DNA of 64,000 nt, from assembly GCF_004684775.1 (NCBI RefSeq), contig NZ_SRIC01000008.1, forward strand, positions 1 to 64,000, written 5' to 3'. The notes below the pieces were generated by a model. It made no database searches and was not told the DNA's origin. It saw only the letters and a list, made by a program, of their open reading frames with translations. This DNA comes from Streptomyces sp. MZ04. Its GTDB lineage: Bacteria; Actinomycetota; Actinomycetes; Streptomycetales; Streptomycetaceae. Both the position numbers and the translations under genes were made by a program. Numbering within the stretch: position 1 is the stretch's first letter; each line of letters begins with the position of its first letter. Positions 7,683-41,740 of this stretch are shown one piece after another.

Positions 7683-8282
7683 GTGCCGAAGCTGTGGAGT
7701 GAGACGATCGAGACGCACCGCCGAGCGGTGCACGACGCGGTCCTGGATGCGACGGCGGCGCTGGCAGCCGAGCATGGGCCGCTCGCGGTCACGATGTCGC
7801 AGATCGCCGAGCAAGCGGGTATCGGCCGGGCGACGTTGTACAAGTACTTCCCAGACGTCCAGTCCATCCTCGTCGCCTGGCACAACCGCGAGGTCACGGC
7901 ACACCTCGAGGTACTTGCCCGCGCCCAGGGACAGGGGGGCGATCCCGGCAAAAGGCTCGAGGCGGTCCTTGAGGCCTACGCCCTGATCCATCACGAGCGG
8001 GCCCGCCGTCACGGCCGGGGGAGCGGTGGCGCCGAGCTGGTCACGCTGCTGCACCAGGACGACCATGTCGTACACGCGCAGCGGCACATTCACGAGATGG
8101 TGCGGGACGTGCTGGCGGAGGCCGCCGCGGCGGGCCGTGTTCGGGACGATGTCGCTCCCGTCGAACTGGCCGCCTACTGCCTCTCGGCCCTGCAGGTGGC
8201 CGGGAGTCTCCCGTCCGCCGCCGCGGTGCGCCGTCTCGTCACCGTCACCCTCGCCGGGCTGCGGCCGGGCGACTCGGCCTGA
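7683..8282 (+). CDS. TetR-family transcriptional regulator
   Basis: 199 aa, GTG start. The N-terminal helix-turn-helix is clear: ALAAEHGPLAVTMSQIAEQAGIGRATLYKYFPDVQSIL, residues 23-60. The C-terminal ligand-binding domain is variable, as usual. It is divergent from the methyltransferase/ABC operon, and two related palindromes flank the promoter region. The likely role is ligand-relieved repression of that export and modification operon. Confidence 0.9.
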   Translation: MPKLWSETIETHRRAVHDAVLDATAALAAEHGPLAVTMSQIAEQAGIGRATLYKYFPDVQSILVAWHNREVTAHLEVLARAQGQGGDPGKRLEAVLEAYALIHHERARRHGRGSGGAELVTLLHQDDHVVHAQRHIHEMVRDVLAEAAAAGRVRDDVAPVELAAYCLSALQVAGSLPSAAAVRRLVTVTLAGLRPGDSA

Positions 8283-8584: not shown

Positions 8585-8917
8585 ATGCCGCAGAACGAAG
8601 AAATTGCGGCAGCTGCAAGGGCTGCCAGAACGGAACGCGTCACCACCAAGGCACGTAAACCCGGATGGCAGAAACCGCCGCGCCGCATCGAATCATCAGA
8701 ATGCATAACGTGCGATTCCTGTGTGCGAAGTTGTCCGCCGGAATTCAATGCGATCTTTGACCGGGGACTTGATGTGGTCATCGTTCCCGAACTGTGCTCG
8801 GGCTGTCCGGTGTGCGTACTGGTCTGCCCCGTGGACTGCATCTACGTGGACGAGGACTGGTCGCCGACGGACAGCGACATGTGGACGCACATCGCGGCCC
8901 AGGAGGCCGGCCGATGA
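8585..8917 (+). CDS. Ferredoxin with two 4Fe-4S motifs
   Basis: 110 aa. Two complete CxxCxxCxxxCP motifs are present, at C40-C43-C46-C50 and C71-C74-C77-C81, so two 4Fe-4S clusters are expected. About 35 basic residues precede them. Its stop overlaps the ATG of the 8914 gene (ATGA), which points to a dedicated electron-transfer partner. As first gene of an operon ending in the CreE/CreD pair, it may supply electrons for reducing a nitroso or N-oxide intermediate during N-N bond formation. That role is inference. Confidence 0.88.
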   Translation: MPQNEEIAAAARAARTERVTTKARKPGWQKPPRRIESSECITCDSCVRSCPPEFNAIFDRGLDVVIVPELCSGCPVCVLVCPVDCIYVDEDWSPTDSDMWTHIAAQEAGR

Positions 8918-10842
8918 CCCCCCGCGGCGAGACAGGGACGGGCAGGGCGGCGGCGGGCTCGCGCCGTGCCGCGTTGGCGAAGGCCAGGCAGAGTCGCCGT
9001 CCGAGCCGCCTCGGCGAGCGGGCCGGTGCCGCTCCCAAGCCGGACTTCGTCTTCGACAGCAACGCCGGATTCCCGGGGTTGCTCGCGCGGACCTGGTCCC
9101 GGGCGGCGGCCGAGCAGGACCCGGGCCGGGCAGTGGAACTGCTGCTCACCCTCGGCGGGCTCGTACCCGCGGACATATCGCTGCGCGCGCTGCGATGTAC
9201 GGAGGAGGCCGCACTGCGGGTGCTCTTCGGCATCTCCTGGCGCGAGCCCGCCGACAAGGGGCGCGACATGGCGACGGCCGACGCGGCGGGCCCGCCCGCG
9301 TTCCTCGGCGAGCTGGGACTGACCACCAGTGGTCGCGTGGTGCTCTCCGTCCCCTCCGAAGGGCCGCTGGCCGGCCGGGAGAAGCTGGTCGACGGGGTGT
9401 TGCGGATCCCCTGGCCGGCGCCGGCGCTGACCGCGTACGAGCATGAGGTCGGGCAGGCGTCGGCCCGCTCGGCCGCCGAGGCCGCGGACTGCCGGGCATG
9501 GCTGTCGGCCACTGGCCCGCAGGGGCGCGACAGGCTCCTTGACGAGTTGAAGGACGCCGCGCGCCGGACCGCGCCCTTCGTGCTCTACCAGGAGGAGCGG
9601 CAGTACACGAACTTTCGCGAGCGCAACACCCTGCCCGGCAAGACACTGTGGCCGGGACATCCGGACTGTGCGCTCAGCGCACTGCAGGGCATACCGCTCG
9701 CCCTGTGGTCGGACAGCGATGTCGTGATGGTCGTCTGCCTCGCCCTCCTGGTCCGTTCAGCCGGATACGCCAGGATCGAGGAGGCCAACGGCACCCAGCT
9801 CACGGTCGGCCATGTGGCCGCACTGCTGGAGCGGACCCGGCGCAAGTACAACGCCGTGCCCGGTGGCCGGAGGGTGCGCCCGGCGGCGTCTCAACGGGTC
9901 ACCGAACTCCGCACGCTGGCCGCGGCCATCCGCGCCCGGCGGGCCCAGGTCACCCGTTCCGTACAGCTCTACCGCGAGATCCACGGCCCCCTCATGCACA
10001 AGATCGAGCGCGTGGCCGAAGCACCCGCGGACGGTGCCAGGGAACGGGAGCAGAGGATCTGCGCCCGCTTGGCCGACCGGATCCCGGTCACCGGTGGGAC
10101 GTTGGCGGAGATGTCCGCGGACATCCAGGCCGGCGCCGACTGGCTCACCCGGCCGCACGGCGCGTTCGGCACCGGACTCGAATCCCTGGTGTACGAGACG
10201 GTGTCGGCCGCCCGGGCGGCCTTCGACGCCGACTTCGCCATGAGCCGCGGCCTGCGTTCGCTGCCCGCCCTCATCCAGGCGCTGCGGCATGAGGACTGGG
10301 CCCGGATCTCCGGATGGGAGCTGCCCGAGTATTTCTGCTGCGTGGTGCCGGCGGCCGGAGCGCGCCGCTACTTCGAGGACTCGGCGGACCGGCTCGCCGA
10401 TGTGGCGTGGGCGATCTCCTCCCGTATGCAGTACAACTCGTGGCATTTCATCGTCGGCAATCTGCCCAAGGTGCCCGAGGTGGAGGCACGCGACTACTTC
10501 GTGCCGCCCACTGTCCCCGACATCGCCTTCCACTCCGACCAGCACCACCACGGCCATGTGGCGGCGCAGGTGCGCTTCAGCATCCGCAGCCCGCAGGCGG
10601 TGAAGGTACTTGACCGGGCCTTCGGAGGCTTCGTCGATCTGCGGTTGCTGCGCTGCGCCGGGACCCCGTTCGGTGAACAGGACCTGTTGGCGGCGCAGCA
10701 CGTCTCGACGCTGCTTGCCGACGCCACCACCGCCACCGCCACCCTGGTGGCCGCCGGCGCCGAGGCGGAGGTCACTGCCTTCGGACCGCAGTGGCACTGG
10801 GAGACCGTCACGGCCGGCGAATCCCGCTGTGCCGATGGCTGA
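8914..10842 (+). CDS. Unrecognised 642-aa protein, ferredoxin-coupled
   Basis: 642 aa, starting at the ATG that overlaps the ferredoxin stop. I do not recognise a family. Features visible: a basic, disordered-looking first 40 residues; a mostly helical, Arg/Ala-rich middle; PEYFCCVVPAAG near residue 472; and a histidine cluster, HSDQHHHGHVAAQVRF, near residue 540 that could bind metal. No membrane segment or secretion signal is seen. It lies in the same operon as the ferredoxin and the nitrous-acid genes. It is the obvious candidate for a redox or N-N-forming step that the recognised enzymes do not cover, but nothing in the sequence proves this. Confidence 0.7.
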   Translation: MTPRGETGTGRAAAGSRRAALAKARQSRRPSRLGERAGAAPKPDFVFDSNAGFPGLLARTWSRAAAEQDPGRAVELLLTLGGLVPADISLRALRCTEEAALRVLFGISWREPADKGRDMATADAAGPPAFLGELGLTTSGRVVLSVPSEGPLAGREKLVDGVLRIPWPAPALTAYEHEVGQASARSAAEAADCRAWLSATGPQGRDRLLDELKDAARRTAPFVLYQEERQYTNFRERNTLPGKTLWPGHPDCALSALQGIPLALWSDSDVVMVVCLALLVRSAGYARIEEANGTQLTVGHVAALLERTRRKYNAVPGGRRVRPAASQRVTELRTLAAAIRARRAQVTRSVQLYREIHGPLMHKIERVAEAPADGAREREQRICARLADRIPVTGGTLAEMSADIQAGADWLTRPHGAFGTGLESLVYETVSAARAAFDADFAMSRGLRSLPALIQALRHEDWARISGWELPEYFCCVVPAAGARRYFEDSADRLADVAWAISSRMQYNSWHFIVGNLPKVPEVEARDYFVPPTVPDIAFHSDQHHHGHVAAQVRFSIRSPQAVKVLDRAFGGFVDLRLLRCAGTPFGEQDLLAAQHVSTLLADATTATATLVAAGAEAEVTAFGPQWHWETVTAGESRCADG

Positions 10843-10884
10843 CGGACTGAGAACCGGCCATCCGACTGCGAGGGGAGGGGAGTT

Positions 10885-12117
10885 GTGCTGCGTCACGAGG
10901 CACTGGACCCCGGCACGGCATTCGTCGACCTGCACAAGTCCGCGCGGCTGCGGGCGCTGAGCAGACTGCCCGCGGCACACCAGCCGAAGTGGCTGCACCA
11001 CACCGACCTCGCCTGTATCCGCGGTGAACTCGCGGCACTGCCCGCCCTGGTGGGCAGGGCGGGTATCGCGGCGCTGCGCGATGCCCTGTGCGAGGTGGAG
11101 GAAGGCACGTCGCTGTTGCTTCATGTCGGTGAATGCGCCGAGCTGTTCACCATGGCCGGCCAGGACCAGGTGGAGCGCAGGCTGCGGCTCTACCGGGCCA
11201 TGGCCGACCGCCTCGCGGCGCGCACCGGGAGCTCCGTGGTGCTCCTCGCCCGGATGGCCGGTCAGCACGCGAAGCCGCGCAGCAGCCCGACCGAGGAACT
11301 GCCCGACGGCACTGTGCTGCCGGTGTACGCCGGTGACGCCGTCAACGCCCTGGAGTCGACCGAGGTGGGCCGCCGGGCAGACCCCTGGCGGCTGTTGACC
11401 AGTTACGACCGCTCCCGCGACACCCTGACCGCCCTGCAGGAGCTCAGCGCAGCCGGTCAGCGTGCCTTCGTGTCGCACGAGGCGCTTCTCACGGACTACG
11501 AGGAGCCCATGACCAGGGGCGAGCGGGAACTGCACTCGGCCGGTGGACATCTGGTGTGGATCGGCGAGCGGACCCGGGGCGCCACCGACTGGCACATCCA
11601 GTGGGCGGCGTCGATCGCCAATCCCGTCGGCGTGAAGCTCGGGCCGACCGCCCGGAGCCAGGATGTGGTGCGGCTCGTCCGCACCCTGAACCCCCGGTCC
11701 CAGAGCGGGCGGCTCAGCCTCATCGCCAGGATGGGCGCGGCCGCGGCGGCGGACCGGCTCGCCTCGCTGGCGGGTGCTGTCCGCCGCTCGGGCGTTCCCG
11801 TGCTGTGGCAGTGCGACCCCATGCACGGCAACACCCGCCGGGCAGGCGGCGTCAAACTCCGTCTGCTGTCCGATCTGAGGGCGGAAATGACTGCCTTCGT
11901 ACGGACCCTGCGTGCCGTCGGTGCGCGGCCCGGGGGGCTGCATCTCGAAGTGACGCCCGAGGACGTGCGGGAGTGCCTGGAAGACGAGGACTCGCCTGGG
12001 ACGGTCACCTCGTCGGCGCCGTGCGACCCCCGGCTGAACACCGATCAGGCACTGGAGCTGGTCGATCACTTCGCCTACGAACTCACTTGTTCACCACAGA
12101 CCGGAGTTCACCGATGA
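10885..12117 (+). CDS. Class II 3-deoxy-7-phosphoheptulonate (DAHP) synthase
   Basis: 410 aa, GTG start after GGGGAGGGGAG. It condenses phosphoenolpyruvate and erythrose 4-phosphate, the first step of the shikimate pathway. The class II signatures are in order: VGECAELF near residue 81, ARMAGQHAKPRS near 126, SHEALLTDYE near 197, WIGERTR near 218, NPVGVKLGP near 245 and CDPMHGN near 310. It is shorter than plant-type or mycobacterial AroG (about 460 aa), as cluster-borne copies often are. It boosts chorismate supply for the salicylate synthase, whose ATG overlaps its stop by 4 bases. Confidence 0.92.
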   Translation: MLRHEALDPGTAFVDLHKSARLRALSRLPAAHQPKWLHHTDLACIRGELAALPALVGRAGIAALRDALCEVEEGTSLLLHVGECAELFTMAGQDQVERRLRLYRAMADRLAARTGSSVVLLARMAGQHAKPRSSPTEELPDGTVLPVYAGDAVNALESTEVGRRADPWRLLTSYDRSRDTLTALQELSAAGQRAFVSHEALLTDYEEPMTRGERELHSAGGHLVWIGERTRGATDWHIQWAASIANPVGVKLGPTARSQDVVRLVRTLNPRSQSGRLSLIARMGAAAAADRLASLAGAVRRSGVPVLWQCDPMHGNTRRAGGVKLRLLSDLRAEMTAFVRTLRAVGARPGGLHLEVTPEDVRECLEDEDSPGTVTSSAPCDPRLNTDQALELVDHFAYELTCSPQTGVHR

Positions 12118-13478
12118 CCACCACCGCCGCGGCCTCCCAGCACTACCTCGAAACCTGCCTCCGGCTACCGGACGATCCGCTGGTCACCCTTTCCCGGCTG
12201 GCCGCCGCCGGTGTACACCGGGACTATGCGATCTACGAGAACGACGGCCAGTGGTCGTACGCGGGAGGCGCGCTCGCCGAGATATCCCTTGACCGCTCCG
12301 GGGCCCGGCTGCGCGGTGCGGAGTCGGCGGAGCTGACCGAGCTGGCCTGGGACGGCGCGCCACTGCGCCAGGTGCACAAGCTCCTTGAGCGGGTGCCCTT
12401 CGCGGACTGGCGGGCCTACGGCTGGGCCGCGTTCGAGCTCGCATACGCCAAGGGCGGGGACACGAGCCTCGTCGGCGGGGAGCGGCTGCTGCATCTGGTG
12501 GTGCCGCACACCGAGGTGCGGATCAAGGGCGGCTGGGTACAGCTCAGGTCGGCCGACGCAACGACCCTCAAAGCAGCGGCCGCCGCGCTGAGCACGGACG
12601 GCGCCCAAGTGGCGGACACGGTGCGGCCGGTGGATGTCCGGGGGCACGGTGCGGACGCCTACGAGCGAGCCGTCGAACTGGCCATCGCAGACATCCGGCA
12701 GCGCAAACTGCAGAAGGTGATCCTCTCCCGGGTCGTGGAACTGCGGGAGGAGATCGACTTCATCGGCACCTATGTCGCCGGGCGGCGCGGGAACAACCCG
12801 GCCCGGTCCTTCCTGCTGCGCCTCGGTGGAGTGGAGGCCGTCGGCTTCAGCCCGGAGATCGTCGTCAAGGTGGACAGCGACGGACGTGTGGTCAGCCAGC
12901 CCCTGGCCGGCACGCGTGCCCTCACCGATGACCCCGAACTCAACGAGCGGCTGCGCTCCGATCTCGTCACGGACGCCAAGGAGATCTTCGAGCACGCCAT
13001 CTCCGTGAAGATCGCGCTCGACGACATCGAGAGCATCTGCGCACCGGGATCCGTGGCCGTCGAGGAGTACATGGCGGTGCGGCACCGCGGCAGTGTGCAG
13101 CACCTGGCCTCCAGGGTCTCCGGGCGGCTTGCCGAGGGGTACGGCCCCTGGGATGTCTTCGCCGCCGCGTTCCCGGCCGTGACCGCATCGGGCGTGCCCA
13201 AGGAGGCCGCCTACGCCAGTATCCGGACGCATGAGCCGCAGGCCCGCGGCCTCTACAGCGGCGCCGTGCTCACCGTGGACCAGGACGGGGCGATGGACGC
13301 CGCGTTGGTGCTGCGAGCCGTCTACCGACGCGACGGCCGGACCTGGCTGCAGGCCGGTGCCGGGGTCGTGGGCCAGTCCCGGCCCGCCCGCGAGTTCGAA
13401 GAGACCTGCGAAAAGCTCGAGAGCGTCGCACGGTTCCTCGTCCCGTCCACGCGACTGGAAGGTGCGGCTCATGCTTGA
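12114..13478 (+). CDS. Salicylate synthase (MbtI/Irp9-like)
   Basis: 454 aa, close to MbtI (about 450). It is a chorismate-utilising enzyme that converts chorismate through isochorismate to salicylate and pyruvate. Visible motifs are KVILSR with the general-base lysine near residue 200, GFSPEIVVK, SQPLAGTRALT, FPAVTASGVPKEAA, LYSGAVL and GAGVVGQSRPAREFEETCEKL. The partner genes (aryl-AMP ligase and aryl carrier) favour salicylate over anthranilate or isochorismate. It overlaps DAHP synthase upstream and the ligase downstream. Confidence 0.88.
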   Translation: MTTTAAASQHYLETCLRLPDDPLVTLSRLAAAGVHRDYAIYENDGQWSYAGGALAEISLDRSGARLRGAESAELTELAWDGAPLRQVHKLLERVPFADWRAYGWAAFELAYAKGGDTSLVGGERLLHLVVPHTEVRIKGGWVQLRSADATTLKAAAAALSTDGAQVADTVRPVDVRGHGADAYERAVELAIADIRQRKLQKVILSRVVELREEIDFIGTYVAGRRGNNPARSFLLRLGGVEAVGFSPEIVVKVDSDGRVVSQPLAGTRALTDDPELNERLRSDLVTDAKEIFEHAISVKIALDDIESICAPGSVAVEEYMAVRHRGSVQHLASRVSGRLAEGYGPWDVFAAAFPAVTASGVPKEAAYASIRTHEPQARGLYSGAVLTVDQDGAMDAALVLRAVYRRDGRTWLQAGAGVVGQSRPAREFEETCEKLESVARFLVPSTRLEGAAHA

Positions 13479-15099
13479 CGGTTGTACTCCCTGGCCGGCG
13501 GAGTTCCAGGCGCGATACCGGTCACTCGGCTGCTGGCGGGGCGAGTCGCTCGGATCCCTGCCCCGTACCTGGGCGCGCGCATACGGCTCCCGCACCGCCC
13601 TCGTCCACGGAGAGCAGCGGATCAGCTATGCCCGACTCGCCGGTCTGGTGGACCGGATGGCGGCCGGGTTCCGCGCCCGCGGGCTGCGCGCGGGGGAACG
13701 GGTGATCGTACAGCTGCCGAACATCCCCGAGTTCGTCATCGTGTGCTTCGCCCTGTTCCGGCTCGACGTGAAGCCGGTCTTCTCACTCCTCGCGCACCGG
13801 GCGGATGAGATCCGGCATCTGGCGGCCCTCTCGGGTGCGGTCGGATACGTGGTGCCCGGCGCCTACCGGGGCTTCGACTTCACCGCGCTGGCCGGGCGGA
13901 TCGCGACGGATGCCGAGGCATTGCGCCTGGTGTGCGTGGCGGACGGCAAACTGCCCGATGCGGTCGGGGGAAGCGGCGCGGAGTCGGTCGCGCTGGCCGA
14001 TGTGGACGCGGATCCCGTGGAACTGCCCGAGCCGGACGCCTCGGACGTGGCCTTCTTCCTGCTCTCCGGCGGGACCACGGCGCTGCCGAAGCTCATCCCG
14101 CGGACCCATGACGACTACGCCTACCAGACCCGGGTGACCGCCGGAATCAACTGCCTCACCGCGGACGACGTGTATCTCGCCGCGCTGCCCGTCGAGTTCA
14201 ACTTCTCCTGGGGCTGCCCCGGTGTGGTGGGCACGTTGAGCAACGGCGGAACGGTGGTACTCGCGGACGGCCCCGACCCCGCGGACTGCTTCGAACTGAT
14301 CGAGCGTGAAGCGGTGACCTTCACCTCGCTGGTGCCGACGGCGGCGCAGCTGTGGGTCGAGGCCGCGGACGCCGTTCCGTACCAGGCACACAGCCTGGAG
14401 CTGATCCAGATCGGCGGCGCCCCGCTGCACCGTGAGCTCGCCGAGCAGATCCTCCCGGTCTTCGGGGCCCGCCTTCAGCAGGTATTCGGCATGGCCGAGG
14501 GACTCCTGACGTTCACCCGAGCGGACGATCCGCCCGAGACCATCCTCACCACCCAAGGGCGGCCTGTCTCGCCGTACGACGAGATACGCATCGTCGACGA
14601 GGACGGCGCCCAGGTCCCGGTGGGCACCGCCGGGGAGTTGCTGACCCGCGGTCCGTACACGCTGCGCGGCTACTACCGCGCCGCCGAGCACAACGCACGA
14701 GCCTTCACGGTGGACGGCTTCTACCGCACAGGGGACCTCGCCCGGCTGACCGGCACGGGCGACCTGGTCATCACGGGCCGGATCAAGGACGTGATCATCC
14801 GCGGCGGTCACAAGATCTCCGCCACGGAGCTCGAGCACCATCTGCACGCTCTTCCGGCCGTGGAGCGGGTGGCCGTGGTGCCCGCTCCCGACCCGTACCT
14901 CGGCGAACGGATCTGCCTGTACGTCAGGCCCGCGGGTGATCCCCCGACCCTTGCGGAGCTGCGCCGGGCGCTGCATGAACTCGGGCTCGCCGACTACAAG
15001 TTGCCCGACCGCCTTGAGATCGTCTCCGAGCTCCCGCTCACGGGCCTCGGCAAGGTCGACAAGAAGGCACTCTCCCAGGCCGCTGCCGCGACTGCCTGA
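13471..15099 (+). CDS. Salicyl-AMP ligase
   Basis: 542 aa, the length of EntE/DhbE/YbtE stand-alone adenylating enzymes. Motifs: LLSGGTTALPKLIPRTH (A3-like) near residue 202, FGMAEGLLTFTR, YRTGDLARL and a C-terminal GKVDKKAL with the catalytic lysine. In the aryl pocket NFSWGCPG has Cys where DhbE has the serine that contacts the 3-hydroxyl of 2,3-dihydroxybenzoate. Known salicylate ligases (YbtE, MbtA) also carry Cys there, so salicylate is the likely substrate. It should load the carrier protein encoded next. The ATG at 13471 overlaps the salicylate synthase by 8 bases. Confidence 0.88.
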   Translation: MLDGCTPWPAEFQARYRSLGCWRGESLGSLPRTWARAYGSRTALVHGEQRISYARLAGLVDRMAAGFRARGLRAGERVIVQLPNIPEFVIVCFALFRLDVKPVFSLLAHRADEIRHLAALSGAVGYVVPGAYRGFDFTALAGRIATDAEALRLVCVADGKLPDAVGGSGAESVALADVDADPVELPEPDASDVAFFLLSGGTTALPKLIPRTHDDYAYQTRVTAGINCLTADDVYLAALPVEFNFSWGCPGVVGTLSNGGTVVLADGPDPADCFELIEREAVTFTSLVPTAAQLWVEAADAVPYQAHSLELIQIGGAPLHRELAEQILPVFGARLQQVFGMAEGLLTFTRADDPPETILTTQGRPVSPYDEIRIVDEDGAQVPVGTAGELLTRGPYTLRGYYRAAEHNARAFTVDGFYRTGDLARLTGTGDLVITGRIKDVIIRGGHKISATELEHHLHALPAVERVAVVPAPDPYLGERICLYVRPAGDPPTLAELRRALHELGLADYKLPDRLEIVSELPLTGLGKVDKKALSQAAAATA

Positions 15100-15155
15100 C
15101 CGCCACCGGCCGATCTGCGACGGCCGGATCCCACCCGAAGGACAAGGACGGACGA

Positions 15156-15434
15156 GTGATGGAGCGATCCACGGCGAGCGAGCCGCCTACCCTCGACGAA
15201 CTGCGCGAGGCCGTCGCCGGCCTCCTGGGCACCACCCCCGAGGACATCCCGGTGGACGGGAACCTTCTCCAGCTGGGCGTCGACTCGATCTGCGTCATGC
15301 GGCTGGTCAACGGCTGGCGCCGGGCGGGACTGCGGGTGTCCTCGCGCGAGTTGTTCGCCGAGCCCACCCTCCTTGCGTGGCACCGGCACCTCGACGCACT
15401 GGGCCATGACACGAGCGGCGAAGCCCGGCGGTGA
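15156..15434 (+). CDS. Aryl carrier protein
   Basis: 92 aa. The phosphopantetheine site is LGVDSICVMRL with Ser44, preceded by the DELREAVAGLLG helix typical of carrier domains. GTG at 15156 is followed immediately by ATG at 15159; AAGGA at 15144-15148 fits the GTG slightly better. It should carry the salicyl thioester made by the ligase. The stop overlaps the CreE-like gene start. Confidence 0.88.
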   Translation: MMERSTASEPPTLDELREAVAGLLGTTPEDIPVDGNLLQLGVDSICVMRLVNGWRRAGLRVSSRELFAEPTLLAWHRHLDALGHDTSGEARR

Positions 15435-17419
15435 ACCACGCGACCGGACGGCTGTCCGTCTGCATCATCGGCGGGGGACCGCGAGGCGTGTCGGTACTGG
15501 AGCGCATCTGCGCCAACGCGCGGCGGACCGCGCCCGGCGGGCCTGTGGGCGTGCACATCGTCGATCCGTACCGGCCGGGCGCCGGCAAGGTGTGGCGCAC
15601 CCAGCAGGCCGAGCATCTGCTCATGAATACGGTCGCCTCGCAGGTCACCCTGTTCACCGACGACAGCGTGGAGCTGGAGGGACCGGTCGTGCCGGGCCCG
15701 AGTCTCCACCAGTGGGCCGTGGAGCTGCCCGCCGGGACCTACGGTCCGTACGACCATGCCACCGTCGCCGAGGCCCGCAGGCTCGGCCCGGACACCTACC
15801 CGACCCGGGCCTTCTACGGCCGGTATCTGGAATGGGTGTACCGGCACATCAGGCGATCGGCTCCGACGCCGGTTTCGGTGACGGCGCATCGGTCGCGGGC
15901 GGTCTGGCTCGACGACATGGCGGGCGGCAGCGGGCGGCAGAGCGTGCTCCTGGAGAACGGGGTGAGGCTGGACGGACTGGATGCCGTCGTACTCACACAG
16001 GGGCACGTGGGGGAGCGGCTCACCCACACCCAGGCCCGGCTCGCGGCCTTCGCGGCCGAGCACGGCCTTTGCTATGTGCCGCCGGCCAATCCCGCGGACA
16101 CCGATCTCTCCCACATAGGCGCGGTCGAGCCCGTGTTGCTGCGGGGGCTCGGCCTCAACTTCTTCGACTATCTGACACTGCTGACCACCGGCCGTGGCGG
16201 CCGGTTCCGCCGCACTGGAGACAGCCTGCGGTACGAACCTTCCGGAGCGGAACCGCGGTTGCTTGCCGGGTCCCGGCGGGGTGTGCCGCACCACGCCCGC
16301 GGCGAGAACGAGAAGGGGCCCTACGGGCGCCATCAGCCGGTCGTGCTCACGCCGTCGGTCATCGAGCGGCTGCGCAAACGTGCGGTCAGAGAAGGCGGGT
16401 TGGACTTCCGGGCCGAGCTGTGGCCGCTGATCGCCACCGAGGTCGAGACCGTCTACTACAGCGCGCTGCTCGAGGCCCATGGCCGCGGTGTCGTGGCCCG
16501 ACGGCTGCGCGCACAGTACCCCGCCCGGGCCGACGACCCACGGGAACGTGAGCTGCTGTGCGCCGAGTTCGGCATCGCACCGGGGGAGCGCTGGAACTGG
16601 GCCCGCATCGCCCATCCCCATCTGGAGCGCTCGTTCACCGGACCGGGCGACCACCGTGCCTGGCTGCTCGGGCATCTGCGGGCCGATCTGGCCGAGGCGC
16701 GGTCGGGCAATGTCCGCGGGCCGGTGAAGGCGGCCGTCGACGTGCTGCGCGATCTGCGCAACGAGATCCGGCTCCTTGTGGATCACGGCGGACTCACCGG
16801 TGATTCCCACCGGGATCATCTGGACGGCTGGTACACGCCGTTGAACGCCTTCCTCTCCATCGGTCCGCCGGCCAGCCGGGTGGAGGAGATGATCGCGCTC
16901 ATCGAGGCCGGAGTCCTCGATGTGCTCGGTCCCGGTCTTTCGGCCTTCGCCGACCACGGGTGCCGGGCGTTCACCGCCCGCTCCGCACGCGTGCCGGGAT
17001 CAGCCGTGCGGGCAACCGCGCTGATCGAGGCCCGGCTCCCGGGAACGGACCTGCGGCGCACGGCCGACCCCCTGCTGCAGCAGCTGCTCGCGCGCGGTGA
17101 GTGCACCCCGTACCGCATCCCTGTGGGTGCCCAACGGCCCTATGAGACAGGGGGACTTGCCGTCACCGGGCGGCCCTACCAACTCCTTGACGCGGCCGGT
17201 CGGCCGCATCCTCGGCGCTTCGCGTTCGGCGTCCCCACCGAGGGCGTGCACTGGGTCACCGCGGCCGGAGTGCGCCCCGGGGTGAACTCCGTCAGCCTGA
17301 GCGACGCCGATGCCATCGCGCGGGCTGCGCTCGCGCTGGCCCCCGCGCACCTTGAAGCCCCCGCGGCCGTGCCGAGCGGCGGCAGTCCGACGACGGAGAG
17401 CGGAGACGAACATGGTTGA
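15431..17419 (+). CDS. CreE-like flavin monooxygenase (L-aspartate N-oxidation)
   Basis: 662 aa. An FAD-binding Rossmann motif, VCIIGGGPRGVSVLERI, occurs at residues 10-26, and the length and overall pattern fit the FAD/NAD(P)-binding group that includes CreE of cremeomycin and FzmM of fosfazinomycin. Those enzymes oxidise L-aspartate to nitrosuccinate. The assignment depends strongly on the next gene, a lyase of the CreD type that overlaps it by 8 bases; the two families occur as a pair. Together they would release nitrous acid and fumarate from aspartate. Other FAD-dependent roles cannot be excluded from motifs alone. Confidence 0.78.
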   Translation: MNHATGRLSVCIIGGGPRGVSVLERICANARRTAPGGPVGVHIVDPYRPGAGKVWRTQQAEHLLMNTVASQVTLFTDDSVELEGPVVPGPSLHQWAVELPAGTYGPYDHATVAEARRLGPDTYPTRAFYGRYLEWVYRHIRRSAPTPVSVTAHRSRAVWLDDMAGGSGRQSVLLENGVRLDGLDAVVLTQGHVGERLTHTQARLAAFAAEHGLCYVPPANPADTDLSHIGAVEPVLLRGLGLNFFDYLTLLTTGRGGRFRRTGDSLRYEPSGAEPRLLAGSRRGVPHHARGENEKGPYGRHQPVVLTPSVIERLRKRAVREGGLDFRAELWPLIATEVETVYYSALLEAHGRGVVARRLRAQYPARADDPRERELLCAEFGIAPGERWNWARIAHPHLERSFTGPGDHRAWLLGHLRADLAEARSGNVRGPVKAAVDVLRDLRNEIRLLVDHGGLTGDSHRDHLDGWYTPLNAFLSIGPPASRVEEMIALIEAGVLDVLGPGLSAFADHGCRAFTARSARVPGSAVRATALIEARLPGTDLRRTADPLLQQLLARGECTPYRIPVGAQRPYETGGLAVTGRPYQLLDAAGRPHPRRFAFGVPTEGVHWVTAAGVRPGVNSVSLSDADAIARAALALAPAHLEAPAAVPSGGSPTTESGDEHG

Positions 17420-18851
17420 CGACGACGGCCGAACGGCCGCCCCCGACACCGGCCTGCTGTCGCCCGTGCGAGCCGGCACCCGGATCGAGGCGCTGCTCGA
17501 CGACCGGGCCTGGCTGCAGGGACTGCTCGACGCCGAGGCGGCGCTGGCCAGGGCGCAGGCCGGCCTGCGGCAGATACCGCAGTGGGCCGCGGCCGCGATC
17601 GGCGCCGCCGCCCACTGCGAACGCTTCGACATCCCGGCCCTGGCGGTGCGTTCGCGCGAGGCCGCCAATCCCGTGGTGGCCCTAGTCCAGGACCTCGCCG
17701 CCGAGGTCGCGAAGTCCGATGTGGCCGCGGCCGAGTACGTCCATCGGGGCTCTACCAGCCAGGACATTCTCGACACCGGCGTGATGCTCGTGTCGGCCCG
17801 CGCGCTGCACGTGATCGAGGACGATCTCCGGCGCGTCACGACGGCCCTGGCCGGCCTCGCGGAGCGGCACCGTGACACCCCCATGGCCGCCCGCACCCTG
17901 ACCCAGCACGCGGTGCCCACCACCTTCGGGCTGAAGGCAGCGGGCTGGCTGCTGCTGGTGCACGGTGCCGCCGACCGGGTACGGCAGCTGCGTCTGGGAG
18001 GCCTTCCCGTGCAACTCGGCGGGGCGGCAGGGACGTTGGCGGGATACGCCGAGTACGCCGGGCTCGACCAGCCGGATGCCACGGGGTCCGCCGGCGGGCT
18101 CGCGGGCCGACTCGGTGCGGCTTTCGCCAGGGAGACCGGTCTGGCCGATGCGGTGTTGCCCTGGCATACGCGGCGTACGCCGCTCGCGGACCTGGGCGCG
18201 GTGCTCGCGCTGGTGAGCGGGGCACTGGGGAAGATCGCCGTCGATGTGCAGTCCATGACCAGAACCGAGGTCGCGGAGGTGGCCGAGCCGGCCGCGGTCG
18301 GCCGGGGGGCCTCCTCGGCCATGCCGCACAAGCGCAACCCGGTCCTCGCCACCCTGATCCGCGCCGCCGCGATGCAAGTGCCGCTGCTCGCGACGAACCT
18401 CGCCCAGTGCATGCTCGCCGAGGACGAGCGGTCGGCCGGTGCCTGGCACGCCGAATGGCAGCCGCTCCGGGAATGCCTGAGGCTGACCGGCGGCGCCGCG
18501 GCCACGGCCGCCGAACTGCTCGACGGAATCGAGATCTTCCCGGAGCGCATGCGGGCGAACCTGGAACGCACCGGCAGCCTGGTGGTGTCCGAGCGCCTTG
18601 CGGCCGTGCTGGCGCCGGTCATCGGCAGGACGGAGGCGAAAGCCCTGCTGTCGGCGGCCTCCGCGGAAGCGGCCGACACCGGAAAGCCGCTGGGTACGGT
18701 GCTTGCCGACCGACCCCAGACGGCCGACCGCTGGTCGGAGAAGGAACTGACCGCACTGCTCGACCCGGTGAACTACCTGGGCGCGGCACCGGAACTCGTC
18801 GACCGGGCCGTACGGGTGTACCGTACGGCGGCCCTTGCTGAATCGCCATGA
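17412..18851 (+). CDS. CreD-like nitrosuccinate lyase (fumarase/ASL superfamily)
   Basis: 479 aa, ATG at 17412. Superfamily motifs are HRGSTSQDILDT near residue 111, TLTQHAVPTTFG and the signature GRGASSAMPHKRNP near residue 298. Generic annotation would call it 3-carboxy-cis,cis-muconate cycloisomerase. Pairing with the CreE-like flavoenzyme makes nitrosuccinate lyase, releasing nitrous acid and fumarate, the better reading. It ends the left operon (8585-18851). A second, different lyase of the same superfamily is at 38705. Confidence 0.8.
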   Translation: MVDDDGRTAAPDTGLLSPVRAGTRIEALLDDRAWLQGLLDAEAALARAQAGLRQIPQWAAAAIGAAAHCERFDIPALAVRSREAANPVVALVQDLAAEVAKSDVAAAEYVHRGSTSQDILDTGVMLVSARALHVIEDDLRRVTTALAGLAERHRDTPMAARTLTQHAVPTTFGLKAAGWLLLVHGAADRVRQLRLGGLPVQLGGAAGTLAGYAEYAGLDQPDATGSAGGLAGRLGAAFARETGLADAVLPWHTRRTPLADLGAVLALVSGALGKIAVDVQSMTRTEVAEVAEPAAVGRGASSAMPHKRNPVLATLIRAAAMQVPLLATNLAQCMLAEDERSAGAWHAEWQPLRECLRLTGGAAATAAELLDGIEIFPERMRANLERTGSLVVSERLAAVLAPVIGRTEAKALLSAASAEAADTGKPLGTVLADRPQTADRWSEKELTALLDPVNYLGAAPELVDRAVRVYRTAALAESP

Positions 18852-19036: not shown

Positions 19037-20119
19037 ATGCCCGATCTCCGGGTCAAGTCAAATTCCCGTGTGTCGACGGAAGTCGAACTCGCCAGTAAGG
19101 ATCTCGTCGGCCCGGTACAGGAGTCGCTGGATGTCTACGGCAACGGATCACTGGACCGATGTCCTGTGGTCTGGGTACGTATTGATTCCCTCGTTCTCGA
19201 GGGGTCTCCGCGTCAGGCAGGTGAAGACGAGAACCACACGCGCCTGCTTGCCGAGTCCGGCAATGCGCTTCCGTCGATAATCGTGCATCGGCCCACGATG
19301 CGGGTGATCGATGGAATGCATCGGGTTCAGGCGGCGTTACTGAACGGGAAGGAAGAGATATCTGCGCGTCTATTGGAGTGTGACGAGCGCGTCGCGTTCG
19401 TGCTCGCGGTACAGGCAAACATCACGCACGGTCTGCCGCTTTCGCACTCCGATCGAAAACTGGCCGCCGAGCGGATCATCGCATCCAATCCGCAGTGGTC
19501 GGACCGGGCGGTGGCGGCCGCAAGTGGTCTGTCCGACAAGACAGTTGCCCGAATCCGCGCCCAAGCGGCCGCCGATTCACCGGAGTCGGGAACGCGTCTC
19601 GGCCGCGACGGTCGTCGGCGGCCCGTCGACAGCGCGGACAGGCGCCGATTGGCCGCGGCGATGATCCGGGAACAGCCGGGCGCGGGAAATCGTGAAATCG
19701 CCCGGGTGGCCGGTCTTTCCCCGGCAACCGTCCGTGATGTGCGTCATCGCACGATGCTCGGTGAAGACCCGGTGCCCGCACGCTACCGGCAGGACGACCA
19801 GGCGTCGCAGGAGCCGTCCGGGCCGCAGCGGAGACTGGTGCCCAGCCGTCCGGGATCCAGGACTCCCGTTGTCCATATGGCCGCGATTCTGGGCCGGCTG
19901 CGCAGCGATCCCGCTCTGCGGATGAACGACACCGGGCGGCACATACTGCGCTGGCTGCATCACCACACGATCAATCCTGGCGAGATGCAGTACTTGGGGC
20001 ACCATCTGCCTGATCACTGGACCAACTGCGTCGCGGATCTCGCGCGAGGCTACGCGACGGCGTGGGGCGACCTGGCCGAGCAACTCGACAAACGCTCTTC
20101 CCGCACGCCTCTGCGCTGA
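19037..20119 (+). CDS. StrR/NovG-family cluster activator (ParB-like plus HTH)
   Basis: 360 aa with a GGGGGAAG ribosome binding site. A ParB/Srx-like N-terminal domain contains VRIDSLVLEGSPRQAGED near residue 47 and RVIDGMHRVQAA near residue 94. It is followed by LAVQANITHGLPLSHSDRK and a helix-turn-helix at NPQWSDRAVAAASGLSDKTVARI, with a second HTH-like stretch near residue 225. This order is diagnostic of pathway-specific activators such as StrR, NovG and Tei15. These bind GTTCRACTG-N11-CRGTYGAAC, and matching sites occur at 8431, 29562, 38563, 43861, 54377 and 55607 here. It is therefore the likely master activator of the whole cluster. Confidence 0.92.
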   Translation: MPDLRVKSNSRVSTEVELASKDLVGPVQESLDVYGNGSLDRCPVVWVRIDSLVLEGSPRQAGEDENHTRLLAESGNALPSIIVHRPTMRVIDGMHRVQAALLNGKEEISARLLECDERVAFVLAVQANITHGLPLSHSDRKLAAERIIASNPQWSDRAVAAASGLSDKTVARIRAQAAADSPESGTRLGRDGRRRPVDSADRRRLAAAMIREQPGAGNREIARVAGLSPATVRDVRHRTMLGEDPVPARYRQDDQASQEPSGPQRRLVPSRPGSRTPVVHMAAILGRLRSDPALRMNDTGRHILRWLHHHTINPGEMQYLGHHLPDHWTNCVADLARGYATAWGDLAEQLDKRSSRTPLR

Positions 20120-21750: not shown

Positions 21751-21753
21751 GGC

Positions 21754-29720: not shown

Positions 29721-29993
29721 GTGATCGAGACAATTCGCGAGTCGGTGATGGCCGCCTTGACCGACATGAATTTCGACCTCAGCGAACTGACGGGGACCAT
29801 GGTGCTCGGCCCGGCCGGGCTCGACCTCGAATCGCTCGGCGTGGCTGAACTCGCGGTGCGTATCGAGGACGATTTCGGGGTGCGGTTCGCCGACGAGGAG
29901 CTGCCCGCGATGGCGGAGCTGACACTCGACGGGCTCGTCGCCCTGGTGGCCGAGCGGGCCGGCGCGGCCTCGGCCGCCGGCCAGGCCGACTGA
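29721..29993 (+). CDS. Discrete acyl carrier protein
   Basis: 90 aa, GTG start 5 bases after AGGAG. The carrier site is GLDLESLGVAEL with Ser38; Glu replaces the usual Asp before Ser. It lies immediately before a FabF-like ketosynthase gene, which should be its partner in chain extension. Confidence 0.85.
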   Translation: MIETIRESVMAALTDMNFDLSELTGTMVLGPAGLDLESLGVAELAVRIEDDFGVRFADEELPAMAELTLDGLVALVAERAGAASAAGQAD

Positions 29994-30000
29994 GCCGGCC

Positions 30001-34775: not shown

Positions 34776-34787
34776 GCAGCGTCCCGT

Positions 34788-34827
34788 CTACTGTCTGAGG
34801 GTCTCGGCTACTGTCCGAGGGTCTCGG
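34788..34827. repeat. 20-bp tandem duplication at the pks stop
   Basis: Two adjacent near-identical 20-mers of CTACTGTCTGAGGGTCTCGG differ at one base. The second copy contains the stop of the minus-strand PKS gene. It looks like a local tandem duplication between the two convergent operons; it contains no hairpin. Confidence 0.7.
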
Positions 34828-38704: not shown

Positions 38705-39988
38705 ATGATTCCGCGTTATACGTGTCCGGAGATGGCGGAGTTATGGACGGATCAGGCCCGCTTCTCGCTGTGGGTGCGGGTGGAGGTACTGGCGTCCCAG
38801 GCCCAGGCGTTCCTGGACGTGGTGCCGGCCGACGCCCTGGACGACATCGTCCGGGCGCCGGTGCCCGACCCGGCGCGGATCGCGGAGCATGAGCGGGAAC
38901 GGGATCATGAGGTCCTCTCCTTCCTCGCCGCGTACTGCGAGGGGATGCCCGAAGAGTCGGCCCGCTGGGTGCACTTGGGCATGACCAGCTACGACCTGGT
39001 GGACACCGCACTCGGCCACACCCTCGCCCGCAGCTGCGACCTGCTGATCCGCGCCACCACCCGGCTGCGTGAGGTGCTTGCGGACCGGGCGGCCGAGCAC
39101 TGGGGCACGCTCTGTGTGGGCCGCACCCACGGAGTCCACGCCGAGCCGACGACCTTCGGTCACAGGCTGGCCGGATTCGCGTTCGCCATGGACCGCTCGC
39201 TGCAGCGGCTGCGAGCGGCCCGGGAGGCCGTCGCCGTGGGAACGATCTCGGGATCCGTGGGCACCTACGCCCTGATCGACCCGTTCGTGGAAACCTACGT
39301 CTGCGGTGAGTTGGGACTCGGCGTCGAGCCGGCGCCCACCCAGGTGGTGGCACGCGACCGCCATGCCCAGTTGGTGCAGGCGGTGGCCACTCTGGGCGGC
39401 TGCATCGAGCAAATCGCCCTGGAACTGCGCCTGTTGCAGCGGACCGAGGTCCGCGAGGTCGAGGAGCGGCGCGCCTCGGCCTACCAAGGATCGAGTGCCA
39501 TGCCGCACAAGCGCAATCCGACGACCAGCGAGCGCCTGTGCGGTCTTTCCCGGCTGCTGCGCGGCTACGCGTCGATGGCCCTGGAGGACGTGGCGCTCTG
39601 GCATGAGCGGGACCTCGCTCACCAGGCGGTCGAACGGGTGATCCTGCCCGACTGCTTGGCCGTCGCGCACTACCAGGTGATCGCGGCCGTCGAACTCGTC
39701 TCCTGTATGGAGGTGTTTCCGGACCGTATGCGCCAGGCGCTGGACACGACCGGCGGCCTGACCCTCAGCTCGGCGGTGCTTGCCGATCTGCTGCGGGACG
39801 GCGTCGAGCGCGAGACGGCCTATCGCACGGTGCAGTCGGCGGCGAACAGGTCACTGGCCGACGGCACGGACTTCGTCGCGGAGCTCGGTAAGGAGGGCGT
39901 CGCGGCCGGGGTGACACCGGAGCGTTTCCTGGTCCATCACGACGTGATCCTCAAGCGATTGGACGCCCTGCGTGAACGGGAAGATTGA
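38705..39988 (+). CDS. PurB-like lyase, probable hydrazinosuccinate-type lyase (FzmR-like)
   Basis: 427 aa, ATG at 38705 after GGAAGGACC. Fumarase/adenylosuccinate lyase superfamily motifs are in order: LGMTSYDLVDTALG near 94, GRTHGVHAEPTTFGHRLAGFA near 140 and the signature QGSSAMPHKRNPTTSE near 264. Its immediate partners are a GNAT and an amidase, not purine genes. In the fosfazinomycin pathway a lyase of this family removes fumarate from N-acetylhydrazinosuccinate to give acetylhydrazine. Housekeeping PurB is the alternative, but the operon context favours a cluster role. Confidence 0.82.
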   Translation: MIPRYTCPEMAELWTDQARFSLWVRVEVLASQAQAFLDVVPADALDDIVRAPVPDPARIAEHERERDHEVLSFLAAYCEGMPEESARWVHLGMTSYDLVDTALGHTLARSCDLLIRATTRLREVLADRAAEHWGTLCVGRTHGVHAEPTTFGHRLAGFAFAMDRSLQRLRAAREAVAVGTISGSVGTYALIDPFVETYVCGELGLGVEPAPTQVVARDRHAQLVQAVATLGGCIEQIALELRLLQRTEVREVEERRASAYQGSSAMPHKRNPTTSERLCGLSRLLRGYASMALEDVALWHERDLAHQAVERVILPDCLAVAHYQVIAAVELVSCMEVFPDRMRQALDTTGGLTLSSAVLADLLRDGVERETAYRTVQSAANRSLADGTDFVAELGKEGVAAGVTPERFLVHHDVILKRLDALRERED

Positions 39989-40373
39989 GCGCGTCGAAGG
40001 CGCCGCGCTGGATGTCGACGAGGTGCTCGCGGTCTACCGCTCATCGGGCCTCGGCGAGCGCCGGCCGATCGGGGACCGCGGGCGCTTCACGGCGATGCTG
40101 CGCAACGCCAACCTGGTCATGGTCTGCCGTACCGACAGCGAGCTGGTGGGGATCGCCCGCTGCGTCTCCGACTTCTCGTACACCACCTATCTGTCGGACA
40201 TCGCGGTCAGCGCCGGACATCAGCGGTCCGGCATCGGACGTGCCCTGATCGATGCGGTACGGCTGGAGGCACCCACCGCCAAGATCGTGCTGCTTTCGGC
40301 GCCCGCCGCCACGGAGTACTACCCCCATATCGGCTTCACCCGGCACGACTCGGCATGGGTGTGGAACCCGTGA
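39972..40373 (+). CDS. GNAT acetyltransferase, FzmQ-like in context
   Basis: 133 aa, GTG start overlapping the lyase gene by 17 bases. The acetyl-CoA loop is IAVSAGHQRSGIGRALIDA near residue 76, followed by LSAPAATEYYPHIGF, a normal small GNAT layout. In the fosfazinomycin/kinamycin scheme a GNAT acetylates hydrazinosuccinate before the lyase acts; this gene has exactly that neighbourhood. The substrate is inferred, not visible. Confidence 0.8.
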   Translation: MNGKIERVEGAALDVDEVLAVYRSSGLGERRPIGDRGRFTAMLRNANLVMVCRTDSELVGIARCVSDFSYTTYLSDIAVSAGHQRSGIGRALIDAVRLEAPTAKIVLLSAPAATEYYPHIGFTRHDSAWVWNP

Positions 40374-41740
40374 CGGCGGTCCGGGGTGTCGGCGACACCC
40401 GCGAGGCGATGCGACAGGGCGAGTGCTCGGCCATCGGACATGTGGAGGCCGCGCTGACCGCCATCGCCGCACAGGACAAGGAACTCGGGGCGTTCGTCAC
40501 CGTCGCAGGCGACCAGGCGGTCGCCGAGGCGGAGGCGGCCGACCGGACGATCCGCGAACTCGGCCCGCGGGCCTGGGTGCGGCGGCCGCTGCTCGGCATC
40601 ACCGTCTCGGTGAAGGACCTCGTCCAGACCGGGGACCTGCCGACGCTGCGTGGCTCGCTGCTCGAGAACCGGCGCGAGCCCGTCGACGCGCCTGCCGTCG
40701 CCCGGCTGCGGGCCGCCGGGGCCATCGTGATCGGCAAGACCACCACATCCGAGTACGGCTGGTGCGGTAGCACAGTGAGCCGGATCGGGCCCGCCACCCG
40801 CAATCCGTTCGACCACGAGCGCTCCGCCGGCGGATCGAGCGGCGGCGCCGCGGTGTCGGTGGCCGCCGGTATGTGTGCGGCCGCGCTCGGCACCGATGGC
40901 GCAGGATCGGTCCGGATACCGGCGGCGTTCTGTGGGGTGGTCGGGTTCAAGCCGTCGTACGGCCGGATCCCGTATGTGCCGGCCTGCGCCGACCGCCTTG
41001 CGCATCTGGGGCCGCTCACCACGAGTGTGGCGGACGCGGCCGAACTCACCACGGTGATGACCGGTGCCTCGCCGCTCGACCCCGACTCGGGCTTCGTCCC
41101 GGCGCCCCGGCGGGAGGCGCCGCTGCGGATCGCCTGGCTCGAATTCCCCGGCACGCAGCCGGAGATCCGCACAGTGGCCGAGAACGCCCGTGCGGTGCTG
41201 TCCGTTCTGGGTCATCGGGTCGAGCACATCGACATACCCTTCCCCGACCCGGGGCCTGCGCTACGAGACATCATCGCGGCCGCCGACGCCGCCGCGTCCG
41301 CGCCCGAGGACGATCCCCTGTGCGACCCGGGGCGTCTTGCTGTCATCCGGTACGGCCGGACCGTCGGCGGAGCCGCGGTGTTGCGCGCGGAGGAGACCCG
41401 GATGGAGTTGAGGATCCGGCTGCGGGCGCTGATGGAGCGCTACGACCTGCTCGCCATGGCCACGGTCCCCATCGAGCCGTTCGCCGCCGAGGCCATCGGG
41501 CCGCCCTGGGCCGCGGACCCCGGTGATCTGCTCTGGCTGTCCTGGACACCGGCCACCTATCCGTTCAACATGACCGGCCAGCCCGCGGTGTCCCTGCCGG
41601 TGGGGAAGACCGCCGCCGGGCTTCCGGTGGGGCTGCAGCTTGTCGGACCCTTCCGGGGCGACGATGTGGTGTTGTCCACCGCGCGCGCCGTCGAGTCGGC
41701 CCTCGGTACGGATCAGCGGCCGATGCTGGTCCCACAATGA
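40370..41740 (+). CDS. Amidase-signature hydrolase
   Basis: 456 aa from GTG at 40370 (GTGA overlap with the GNAT stop); an ATG at 40355 is also in frame. The Ser-cisSer-Lys machinery is visible: Lys in TVSVKDLVQTG near residue 81, AGGSSGGAAVSVAAG near residue 153 and the nucleophile region GTDGAGSVRIPAAFCG near residue 175. With the preceding lyase and GNAT it could deacetylate acetylhydrazine to free hydrazine, the step assigned to the amidase in the fosfazinomycin route. Confidence 0.85.
   Translation: MTAVRGVGDTREAMRQGECSAIGHVEAALTAIAAQDKELGAFVTVAGDQAVAEAEAADRTIRELGPRAWVRRPLLGITVSVKDLVQTGDLPTLRGSLLENRREPVDAPAVARLRAAGAIVIGKTTTSEYGWCGSTVSRIGPATRNPFDHERSAGGSSGGAAVSVAAGMCAAALGTDGAGSVRIPAAFCGVVGFKPSYGRIPYVPACADRLAHLGPLTTSVADAAELTTVMTGASPLDPDSGFVPAPRREAPLRIAWLEFPGTQPEIRTVAENARAVLSVLGHRVEHIDIPFPDPGPALRDIIAAADAAASAPEDDPLCDPGRLAVIRYGRTVGGAAVLRAEETRMELRIRLRALMERYDLLAMATVPIEPFAAEAIGPPWAADPGDLLWLSWTPATYPFNMTGQPAVSLPVGKTAAGLPVGLQLVGPFRGDDVVLSTARAVESALGTDQRPMLVPQ

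Follow-up and report, generated by a model that had tools for sequence, protein, structure and literature searches.

A predicted KinIJ-type heme hydrazine synthase encoded next to salicylate genes in Streptomyces sp. MZ04

We analyzed a stretch of 64,000 nucleotides from Streptomyces sp. MZ04 (NCBI RefSeq assembly GCF_004684775.1, contig NZ_SRIC01000008.1, positions 1 to 64,000; hereafter, the window), in which two genes at positions 8585-10842 encode a ferredoxin and a protein of 642 amino acids. Judging from residues, fold and gene context, it is very likely that these genes encode a KinIJ-type heme hydrazine synthase made up of two components, which would convert L-aspartate and nitrite to L-hydrazinosuccinate. 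The N-N joining step of the pathway is thereby placed on a specific and very recently described enzyme pair. This kind of enzyme is already known from a preprint of 2025, and the remaining interest is the combination of salicylate and hydrazine: one same-strand gene run encodes the ferredoxin, the heme enzyme and the enzymes for nitrite supply, together with a putative aryl acceptor line. The locus also provides a new setting for questions of substrate scope and ferredoxin specificity in the KinJ family.

Our main point of reference is a preprint of May 2025 available in PubMed Central (PMC12154649), which describes KinJ and FzmP as heme b proteins of a new family and reports anaerobic assays in which, given the ferredoxin KinI, they formed L-hydrazinosuccinate from L-aspartate and nitrite. 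In 2018, KinJ/FzmP was described as part of a conserved five-gene cassette, with its role given as unknown (PMC6133997), and in 2024 a review named it as a putative N-N enzyme and gave UniProt A0A385LMJ2 as the entry for KinJ (PMC11705231). An earlier reading of the window (the original prediction) had proposed that the ferredoxin and the large protein form a redox pair that joins two nitrogens, and had called this step the least well defined in related pathways. The proposal is supported, as the pair corresponds to KinI and KinJ, which join nitrogens in vitro. The step had long been undefined, and the preprint of 2025 resolved it (PMC12154649).

The gene pair

The two genes are as follows.

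8585..8917, + strand: KinI-type ferredoxin, 110 amino acids; two CxxCxxCxxxC motifs, Pfam Fer4 models, a homologue directly preceding the large gene in 59 of 61 loci
8914..10842, + strand: predicted KinJ/FzmP/NegJ-type heme hydrazine synthase, 642 amino acids; nine KinJ residues at offset +7, distantly GAF-like C-terminal domain

The ferredoxin gene extends from an ATG at 8585 to a stop codon at 8915-8917, and the large gene from an ATG at 8914 to a stop codon at 10840-10842. They overlap, as had been claimed, by the 4 bases ATGA at 8914-8917. The cysteine motifs of the ferredoxin begin at residues 40 and 71 of 110, after an N-terminal extension, and the best of the Pfam models for 4Fe-4S dicluster proteins matches with an E-value of 1.5e-10. 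KinI-type ferredoxins have been described as having an N-terminal extension, two [4Fe-4S] motifs and a gene next to kinJ (PMC12154649), and the 110-amino-acid protein has all of these features.

The same arrangement is found in other genomes, where we collected 61 loci (given L numbers below) that encode a relative of the large protein. In the 59 loci with a ferredoxin homologue, this gene is directly upstream and both cysteine motifs are present (59/59); its stop codon lies within an ATGA, GTGA or TTGA string in 48 of them. We found no ferredoxin at L061 or at L058, where the contig starts inside the large gene.

Residues and fold of the large protein

The original prediction held that the large protein matches no family. 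It is true that a search of Pfam yielded no family up to an E-value of 10, that a single NCBIfam model matched (E 0.092, far under the model's cut-off) and that only one weak match (E 0.018) was found among PDB sequences. The lack of a match to earlier-known domain families is itself a trait of the KinJ family, and it is to this known family, KinJ/FzmP, that the residues below assign the protein. We therefore rejected the idea of a protein of unknown kind, given these matches and the existing description of KinIJ.

The preprint names C468, M498, H504, H541, R497, R551, R570, N501 and, potentially, K356 as heme or active-site residues of KinJ (PMC12154649). All nine have a counterpart in the 642-amino-acid protein at a single offset of +7, namely K363, C475, R504, M505, N508, H511, H548, R558 and R577 (KinJ K356, C468, R497, M498, N501, H504, H541, R551 and R570, respectively). 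Because the offset was anchored on M505, eight of the nine matches are independent of that choice. The next-best offset in the same protein gives four of nine matches, the best of 51 other genes of the window gives three, and 1000 shuffles gave at most five.

The HHHGH cluster that had been noticed in the large protein is present at residues 544-548, and its last histidine, H548, coincides with H541 of KinJ. H541 is the likely axial heme ligand, this role and those of the arginines being proposals of the preprint's authors (PMC12154649). We considered a hydrolase-type metal site as an explanation of the cluster and rejected it, because its third histidine is present in only 45 of 54 aligned proteins and its last is at the position of the proposed heme ligand.

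Structure prediction, which had been put forward as a check, was performed with AlphaFold2 from an alignment of 54 proteins (see below), and gave a model with a mean predicted local distance difference test score of 88.5 and a predicted template modelling score of 0.88. Judged by their titles, phytochromes, sensor kinases and GAF domains make up most of the best 50 Foldseek rows for this model; the best row has an E-value of 5.3e-3, and the heme-bound GAF domain of DosT (2vzw) appears at 0.056. Using VIA-align, GAF domains, including heme- and bilin-binding ones, align to residues ~372-614 with Z-scores up to 11.7. This region contains C475, R504-H511, H548, R558 and R577. The authors of the KinJ preprint likewise report a resemblance to DosT and to bilin-binding GAF domains (PMC12154649), so the distantly GAF-like C-terminal domain of KinJ has its counterpart here.

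A fold shared with sensor GAF domains might suggest that the pair serves some other redox function, for example as a heme sensor or as a reductase of nitrite to ammonia, with no joining of nitrogens. We regard this as very improbable: the protein has the nine KinJ residues at fixed spacing, its gene context includes genes for handling nitrite and hydrazine, and KinJ itself has the same likeness to GAF domains (PMC12154649).

Conservation and distribution of relatives

The relatives encoded in the 61 loci are 55-71% identical to the large protein in the best segment, other than L054 (44%). These loci were fetched using six exact 8-residue patterns. Our alignment consists of 54 rows, i.e., the window and 53 of the loci. 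We left out L013 and L020 (a stop in the extension), L025, L029, L031 and L040 (outside limits of 580-680 amino acids after choice of the start), L057 (frame apparently broken) and L058 (partial). L057, from Actinomadura livida, has its KinJ homologue split over three matches, and might be a pseudogene or reflect a sequencing error. In all 54 rows, the nine KinJ-type residues are invariant, as are W510, H544, H545 and R554; the first, second and last histidines of HHHGH are among the invariant positions.

Thirteen further rows were found without the patterns. Twelve of these cover the relevant region and keep all nine residues, even where identity is low (29-41% in four rows); L069 and L075 derive from a single gene, so the twelve rows represent 11 genes. 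The thirteenth, L074, is a fragment that keeps every residue within its span.

In a sample of Streptomyces genomes, 13 of 199 have a match to the large protein, including the genome of the window; one of the 13 matches is a fragment, and two others are weak, with E-values of 1.6e-33 and 1.6e-41. Plasmid records contain eight relatives (H1-H8), each annotated as a hypothetical protein. Seven of these are on Streptomyces plasmids, and the other is on a replicon of Burkholderia stagnalis, with 28% identity over 56% of the query. The relative at L017 (61% identical) is encoded by Micromonospora rosaria, which is also the source of FlsU2, and may or may not be FlsU2 itself.

Nitrite genes and hydrazine cassette

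The original prediction had placed the pair ahead of salicylate and nitrous-acid genes, and this is borne out by the Pfam and NCBIfam assignments of the same-strand genes downstream. The genes relevant to nitrite and hydrazine are listed here.

15488..17419, + strand: CreE/FzmM-like aspartate N-monooxygenase, called by fold and neighbour; Pfam NAD_binding_9 and FAD-NAD(P)-binding, no NCBIfam match
17412..18851, + strand: nitrosuccinate lyase, CreD/FzmL type; NCBIfam NF052556, 708 bits (cut-off 650)
38732..39988, + strand: KinM/FzmR-type lyase (N-acetylhydrazinosuccinate to acetylhydrazine and fumarate); Pfam Lyase_1, 54 of 61 KinJ loci
39972..40373, + strand: KinN/FzmQ-type N-acetyltransferase; Pfam GNAT, homologue in 44 of 61 KinJ loci
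40370..41740, + strand: KinK/FzmO-type amidase; Pfam Amidase, homologue in 50 of 61 KinJ loci
42248..42748, + strand: second GNAT acetyltransferase; Pfam PF13302
44084..45568, + strand: KinL/FzmN-type glutamine-synthetase-like ligase (glutamyl-acetylhydrazine); Pfam Gln-synt_C, 53 of 61 KinJ loci

The characterized counterparts have reported functions. FzmM and FzmL make nitrous acid from aspartate, and FzmQ/KinN acetylates hydrazinosuccinate (PMC6133997). FzmR/KinM yields acetylhydrazine and fumarate, FzmN attaches the acetylhydrazine to glutamate, and FzmO/KinK is an amidase (PMC6133997). All six gene types of the kin/fzm cassette are present in the window, where the CreE-like gene is called by its FAD-binding fold and its neighbour only. 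The pair therefore sits in a complete kin/fzm-type gene set, divided into two segments ~20 kb apart. In nine of the 61 loci, CreE-like homologues (56-62% identical) are near homologues of the lyase (59-67%).

The second GNAT acetyltransferase has homologues of 60-72% identity that follow the KinM homologue in the Streptomyces loci L034, L037, L042 and L044. We found no KinN type in these four loci, and the protein may therefore be an alternative hydrazinosuccinate acyltransferase.

The cassette also bears on the substrate of the pair. Substrates differ among members of the family, and NegJ is reported to make hydrazinoacetate from glycine (PMC12154649), so a KinJ-family enzyme might use glycine or another amine in place of aspartate. 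However, the window has all four of the later gene types of the aspartate route (KinM lyase, KinN acetyltransferase, amidase and glutamine-synthetase-like ligase), and these suit hydrazinosuccinate. In particular, the presence of the fumarate-releasing lyase type favors aspartate over glycine, and we consider another amine improbable.

Weighing the assignment

The residues, the fold and the gene context are observations of this study, and the family of the 642-amino-acid protein follows from these three together. Several points weigh against our interpretation of the pair. First, one of the six search patterns was MQYNSWHF, so the invariance of that stretch is partly built in; K363, C475, R504, H548, R558 and R577 are outside all of the patterns. 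Second, the Foldseek comparison with the PDB gave no match at E <= 0.001, so the GAF likeness is distant, and the fold comparison bears on the C-terminal part, with little coverage of residues 1 to ~220. Third, family membership was judged using residue numbers from the preprint, together with fold and context, rather than by alignment with KinJ, FzmP or NegJ themselves. The numbering in the preprint wavers, with R496/R550 in one passage and R497/R551 in another (PMC12154649). Only R497/R551 fit, as R496/R550 at +7 would be S503 and I557, which do not match; we take them as slips by one. Fourth, KinJ and FzmP seldom exceeded one turnover in the reported work (PMC12154649). Finally, the operon and the cassette at 38.7-45.6 kb are ~20 kb apart with other genes between them.

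Salicylate genes and the Nocardia loci

Between the pair and the nitrite genes are four genes that appear to make and activate salicylate. 3-Deoxy-D-arabino-heptulosonate 7-phosphate is abbreviated DAHP, and adenosine monophosphate AMP.

10885..12117, + strand: class II DAHP synthase family (shikimate supply); Pfam PF01474, E 3.2e-106; NCBIfam TIGR01358, 323 bits, below the cut-off of 614.7
12114..13478, + strand: salicylate synthase; NCBIfam TIGR03494, 454.5 bits (cut-off 325)
13471..15099, + strand: aryl- (probably salicyl-) AMP ligase, 542 amino acids; Pfam AMP-binding; NCBIfam dihydroxybenzoate-AMP ligase, 594.6 bits, below the cut-off of 723.6
15159..15434, + strand: aryl carrier protein; Pfam PP-binding

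From 8585 to 18851, adjacent same-strand genes either share 4-8 bases or stand ~40-60 bases apart. Such short overlaps and gaps are consistent with a single operon running from the ferredoxin gene to the nitrosuccinate lyase gene.

Six Nocardia loci have related arrangements. In L035, L036 and L049, the order of ferredoxin, heme enzyme, DAHP synthase, salicylate synthase and aryl ligase is that of the window, and a carrier match comes next after the ligase (49-69% identity). In L045, L046 and L048, the pair is likewise followed by a DAHP synthase and a carrier, with an aryl ligase between these two in two of the three loci, but a salicylate synthase of the window's type is missing. L046 instead has an isochorismatase, a short-chain dehydrogenase and a chorismate-binding enzyme, a gene set known from 2,3-dihydroxybenzoate synthesis. 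Across the six loci, then, the DAHP synthase and carrier follow the pair in all six, the ligase is in place in five, and the salicylate synthase is found in three. It is important to consider that the KinJ proteins of L035 and L036 are identical and that the ligases of L045 and L048 share 93% identity, so these near-copies reduce the six loci to about four independent cases.

The ligases also differ in a core motif. The residue preceding PG is cysteine in the window (FNFSWGCPG), L035 and L049, and serine in L045 and L048 (FNFTWGSPG) and in L046 (HNFPLSSPG). We assume that cysteine at this position marks salicylate ligases and serine marks dihydroxybenzoate ligases.

The fetched stretches of the six Nocardia loci have no KinL, KinK or KinN type, and keep the KinM type. 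L035 and L045 carry a gene of the penicillin-amidase family, which we suggest replaces the amidase. In L045 (Nocardia vulneris) and L048 (N. brasiliensis), genes for a GHMP kinase, a protein like diphosphomevalonate decarboxylase and a polyprenyl synthetase flank the KinIJ/aryl locus, a hint that the product may be prenylated; these flanking genes were identified using Pfam for L045 and by gene order for L048.

A candidate salicyl transferase

One further gene lies inside the hydrazine cassette of the window, and encodes a protein related to beta-ketoacyl-acyl carrier protein synthase III (KAS III).

42732..43757, - strand: KAS III-like protein, 341 amino acids, proposed salicyl transferase; Pfam ACP_syn_III, homologues of 45-50% identity adjoin aryl-acid genes without KinJ

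Among the fetched KinJ loci, relatives of this protein (59-64% identical) occur in L022, L045, L046 and L048. In a comparison of seven genomes (those of L022 and of the six Nocardia loci), a whole homologue adjoins the ferredoxin gene in three (L045, L046 and L048) and is ~3.4 kb upstream in L022. The L036 genome has a homologue on another contig, and the L035 and L049 genomes have fragments only.

A search of 345 genomes of the class found matches at E <= 1e-40 in 20, including the genome of the window, and we fetched 19 of the 23 foreign matches together with ~1.5 kb of flanking sequence at either end. An aryl ligase gene adjoins each of the four best matches (45-50% identical), and three of these also adjoin a salicylate synthase gene, whereas none of the 15 weaker matches does. 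No KinJ was found within the 20 kb fetched around each of the four. These relatives, which were gathered without reference to KinJ, are evidence for cooperation between the KAS III-like protein and carrier lines of the salicyl type. In the alignment, NGC is kept at the likely nucleophile position, and GHAG takes the place of the GN motif of FabH. On this basis, we propose that the protein is an acyltransferase rather than a condensing enzyme.

The same relatives also allow for a different explanation, namely that the salicylate genes serve another product, e.g., a siderophore, and belong to the same gene run by chance. The 20-kb regions of the four best relatives have an aryl ligase and a carrier match, with a salicylate synthase in three, all without KinJ. 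Moreover, each of the seven genomes has a salicylate-synthase homologue of 44-50% identity elsewhere. A tree of the 54 KinJ rows does not unite the seven rows with aryl genes (the window and the six Nocardia loci): L045, L046 and L048 make up one well-supported group and L035, L036 and L049 another, support for the forks that separate them is weak, and the window has no supported partner, with L022 nearest by path. Against a chance association are the recurrence of these genes after the pair in the Nocardia loci, some of them near-copies, and the position of the KAS III-like gene inside the hydrazine cassette of the window. We consider separate products somewhat unlikely, and the locus suggests a natural product that combines salicylate and hydrazine.

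Proposed pathway

For KinIJ or its cassette partners, heme b, the need for ferredoxin, the reaction, acetylation, fumarate release and glutamyl loading have been reported (PMC12154649, PMC6133997). By analogy, the ferredoxin would dock on the 642-amino-acid protein and supply electrons to heme b held by H548 in the GAF-like C-terminal domain. The CreE- and CreD-type enzymes encoded nearby (15488-18851) would supply nitrite from aspartate, and this nitrite would bind the heme near R504, R558 and R577 and be reduced without O2. The reduced nitrite would then couple with the amino group of L-aspartate, the presumed substrate in this strain, to form L-hydrazinosuccinate, for a net of four electrons.

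The cassette at 38.7-45.6 kb would subsequently acetylate hydrazinosuccinate, split off fumarate and load acetylhydrazine on glutamate, in an order that we infer for this strain, and we assume that the FzmO/KinK-type amidase carries out deacetylation. In parallel, the salicylate module (10885-15434) would produce a salicyl-S-carrier protein, from which the KAS III-like protein (42732-43757) might hand the salicyl group to the hydrazine synthon. A tentative idea, to which we give slightly less than even odds, is that the locus makes a new class of product, in which a KAS III-like transferase moves a carrier-bound salicyl group (2,3-dihydroxybenzoyl in some Nocardia) onto a hydrazine derived from KinIJ to give an aryl hydrazide or a derivative.

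The locus points to a salicylate-hydrazine product, and we found no such product or cluster described among the matches listed in searches of open-licence PubMed Central main texts. The main text of PMC12154649 has no occurrence of salicyl, benzoate or DAHP, and those of PMC11705231 and PMC13061610 have none of salicyl.

Other genes in the window

Two regulators might be associated with the locus.

7683..8282, + strand: TetR-family regulator, possible cluster member; Pfam TetR_N, one homologue in 61 loci (55%), beside the L022 cassette
19037..20119, + strand: putative helix-turn-helix regulator, 360 amino acids; Pfam HTH_23, E 2.6e-8, homologues of 33-60% identity in 14 of 61 loci

A minus-strand gene that separates the two parts of the hydrazine pathway (24238-25797) encodes a nickel-pincer-dependent hydroxyacid isomerase of the LarAH14/15/16 family (NCBIfam, 880 bits; cut-off 740), along with a possible metal-uptake ATP-binding cassette transporter (20252-22896, minus strand) that was read from sequence only. 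A second biosynthetic block at 29721-38352 encodes a carrier protein, a ketosynthase, a ketosynthase-carrier protein, a 1165-amino-acid formyltransferase + adenylation + carrier protein, and a protein with a weak likeness to N-acetyl sugar amidotransferases; this block might serve the same product or a different one. At 50192-52741 is a gene for an 849-amino-acid protein with PPDK_N and phosphoenolpyruvate-utilising mobile domains, an architecture that also occurs in rifampin phosphotransferases.

Comparison with known systems

The closest known system is KinI/KinJ of kinamycin biosynthesis in Streptomyces murayamaensis, which has the same adjoining ferredoxin and heme protein, the nine residues and the GAF-like C-terminal domain, as well as nitrite genes and KinK/L/M/N-type genes nearby (PMC12154649). 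In contrast to the kinamycin locus, the gene run in the window goes on into genes for DAHP synthase, salicylate synthase, aryl-AMP ligase and carrier protein, and the remaining cassette genes are ~20 kb away. FzmP of fosfazinomycin biosynthesis belongs to the same heme family, and its cluster shares the later gene types FzmN/O/Q/R and the FzmL/M-type nitrite genes. However, the fzm cluster is reported to be without a ferredoxin gene (PMC12154649), whereas the ferredoxin gene here overlaps that of the heme protein. NegJ of negamycin biosynthesis is stated to be of the same heme family, but its reported substrate is glycine, and the gene for its ferredoxin is reported to lie outside the cluster (PMC12154649).

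For the dedicated attachment of salicylate, the nearest precedent we found is Ccb3/Ccb2/Ccb1 of celesticetin (PMC4351081, PMC5416915). Both systems combine a salicylate synthase, a salicylate-activating ligase and a dedicated acyltransferase, the last being our proposal in the present case. They differ in that celesticetin uses coenzyme A and a WS/DGAT acyltransferase, while the locus described here has a carrier protein and a KAS III-like candidate (PMC4351081, PMC5416915).

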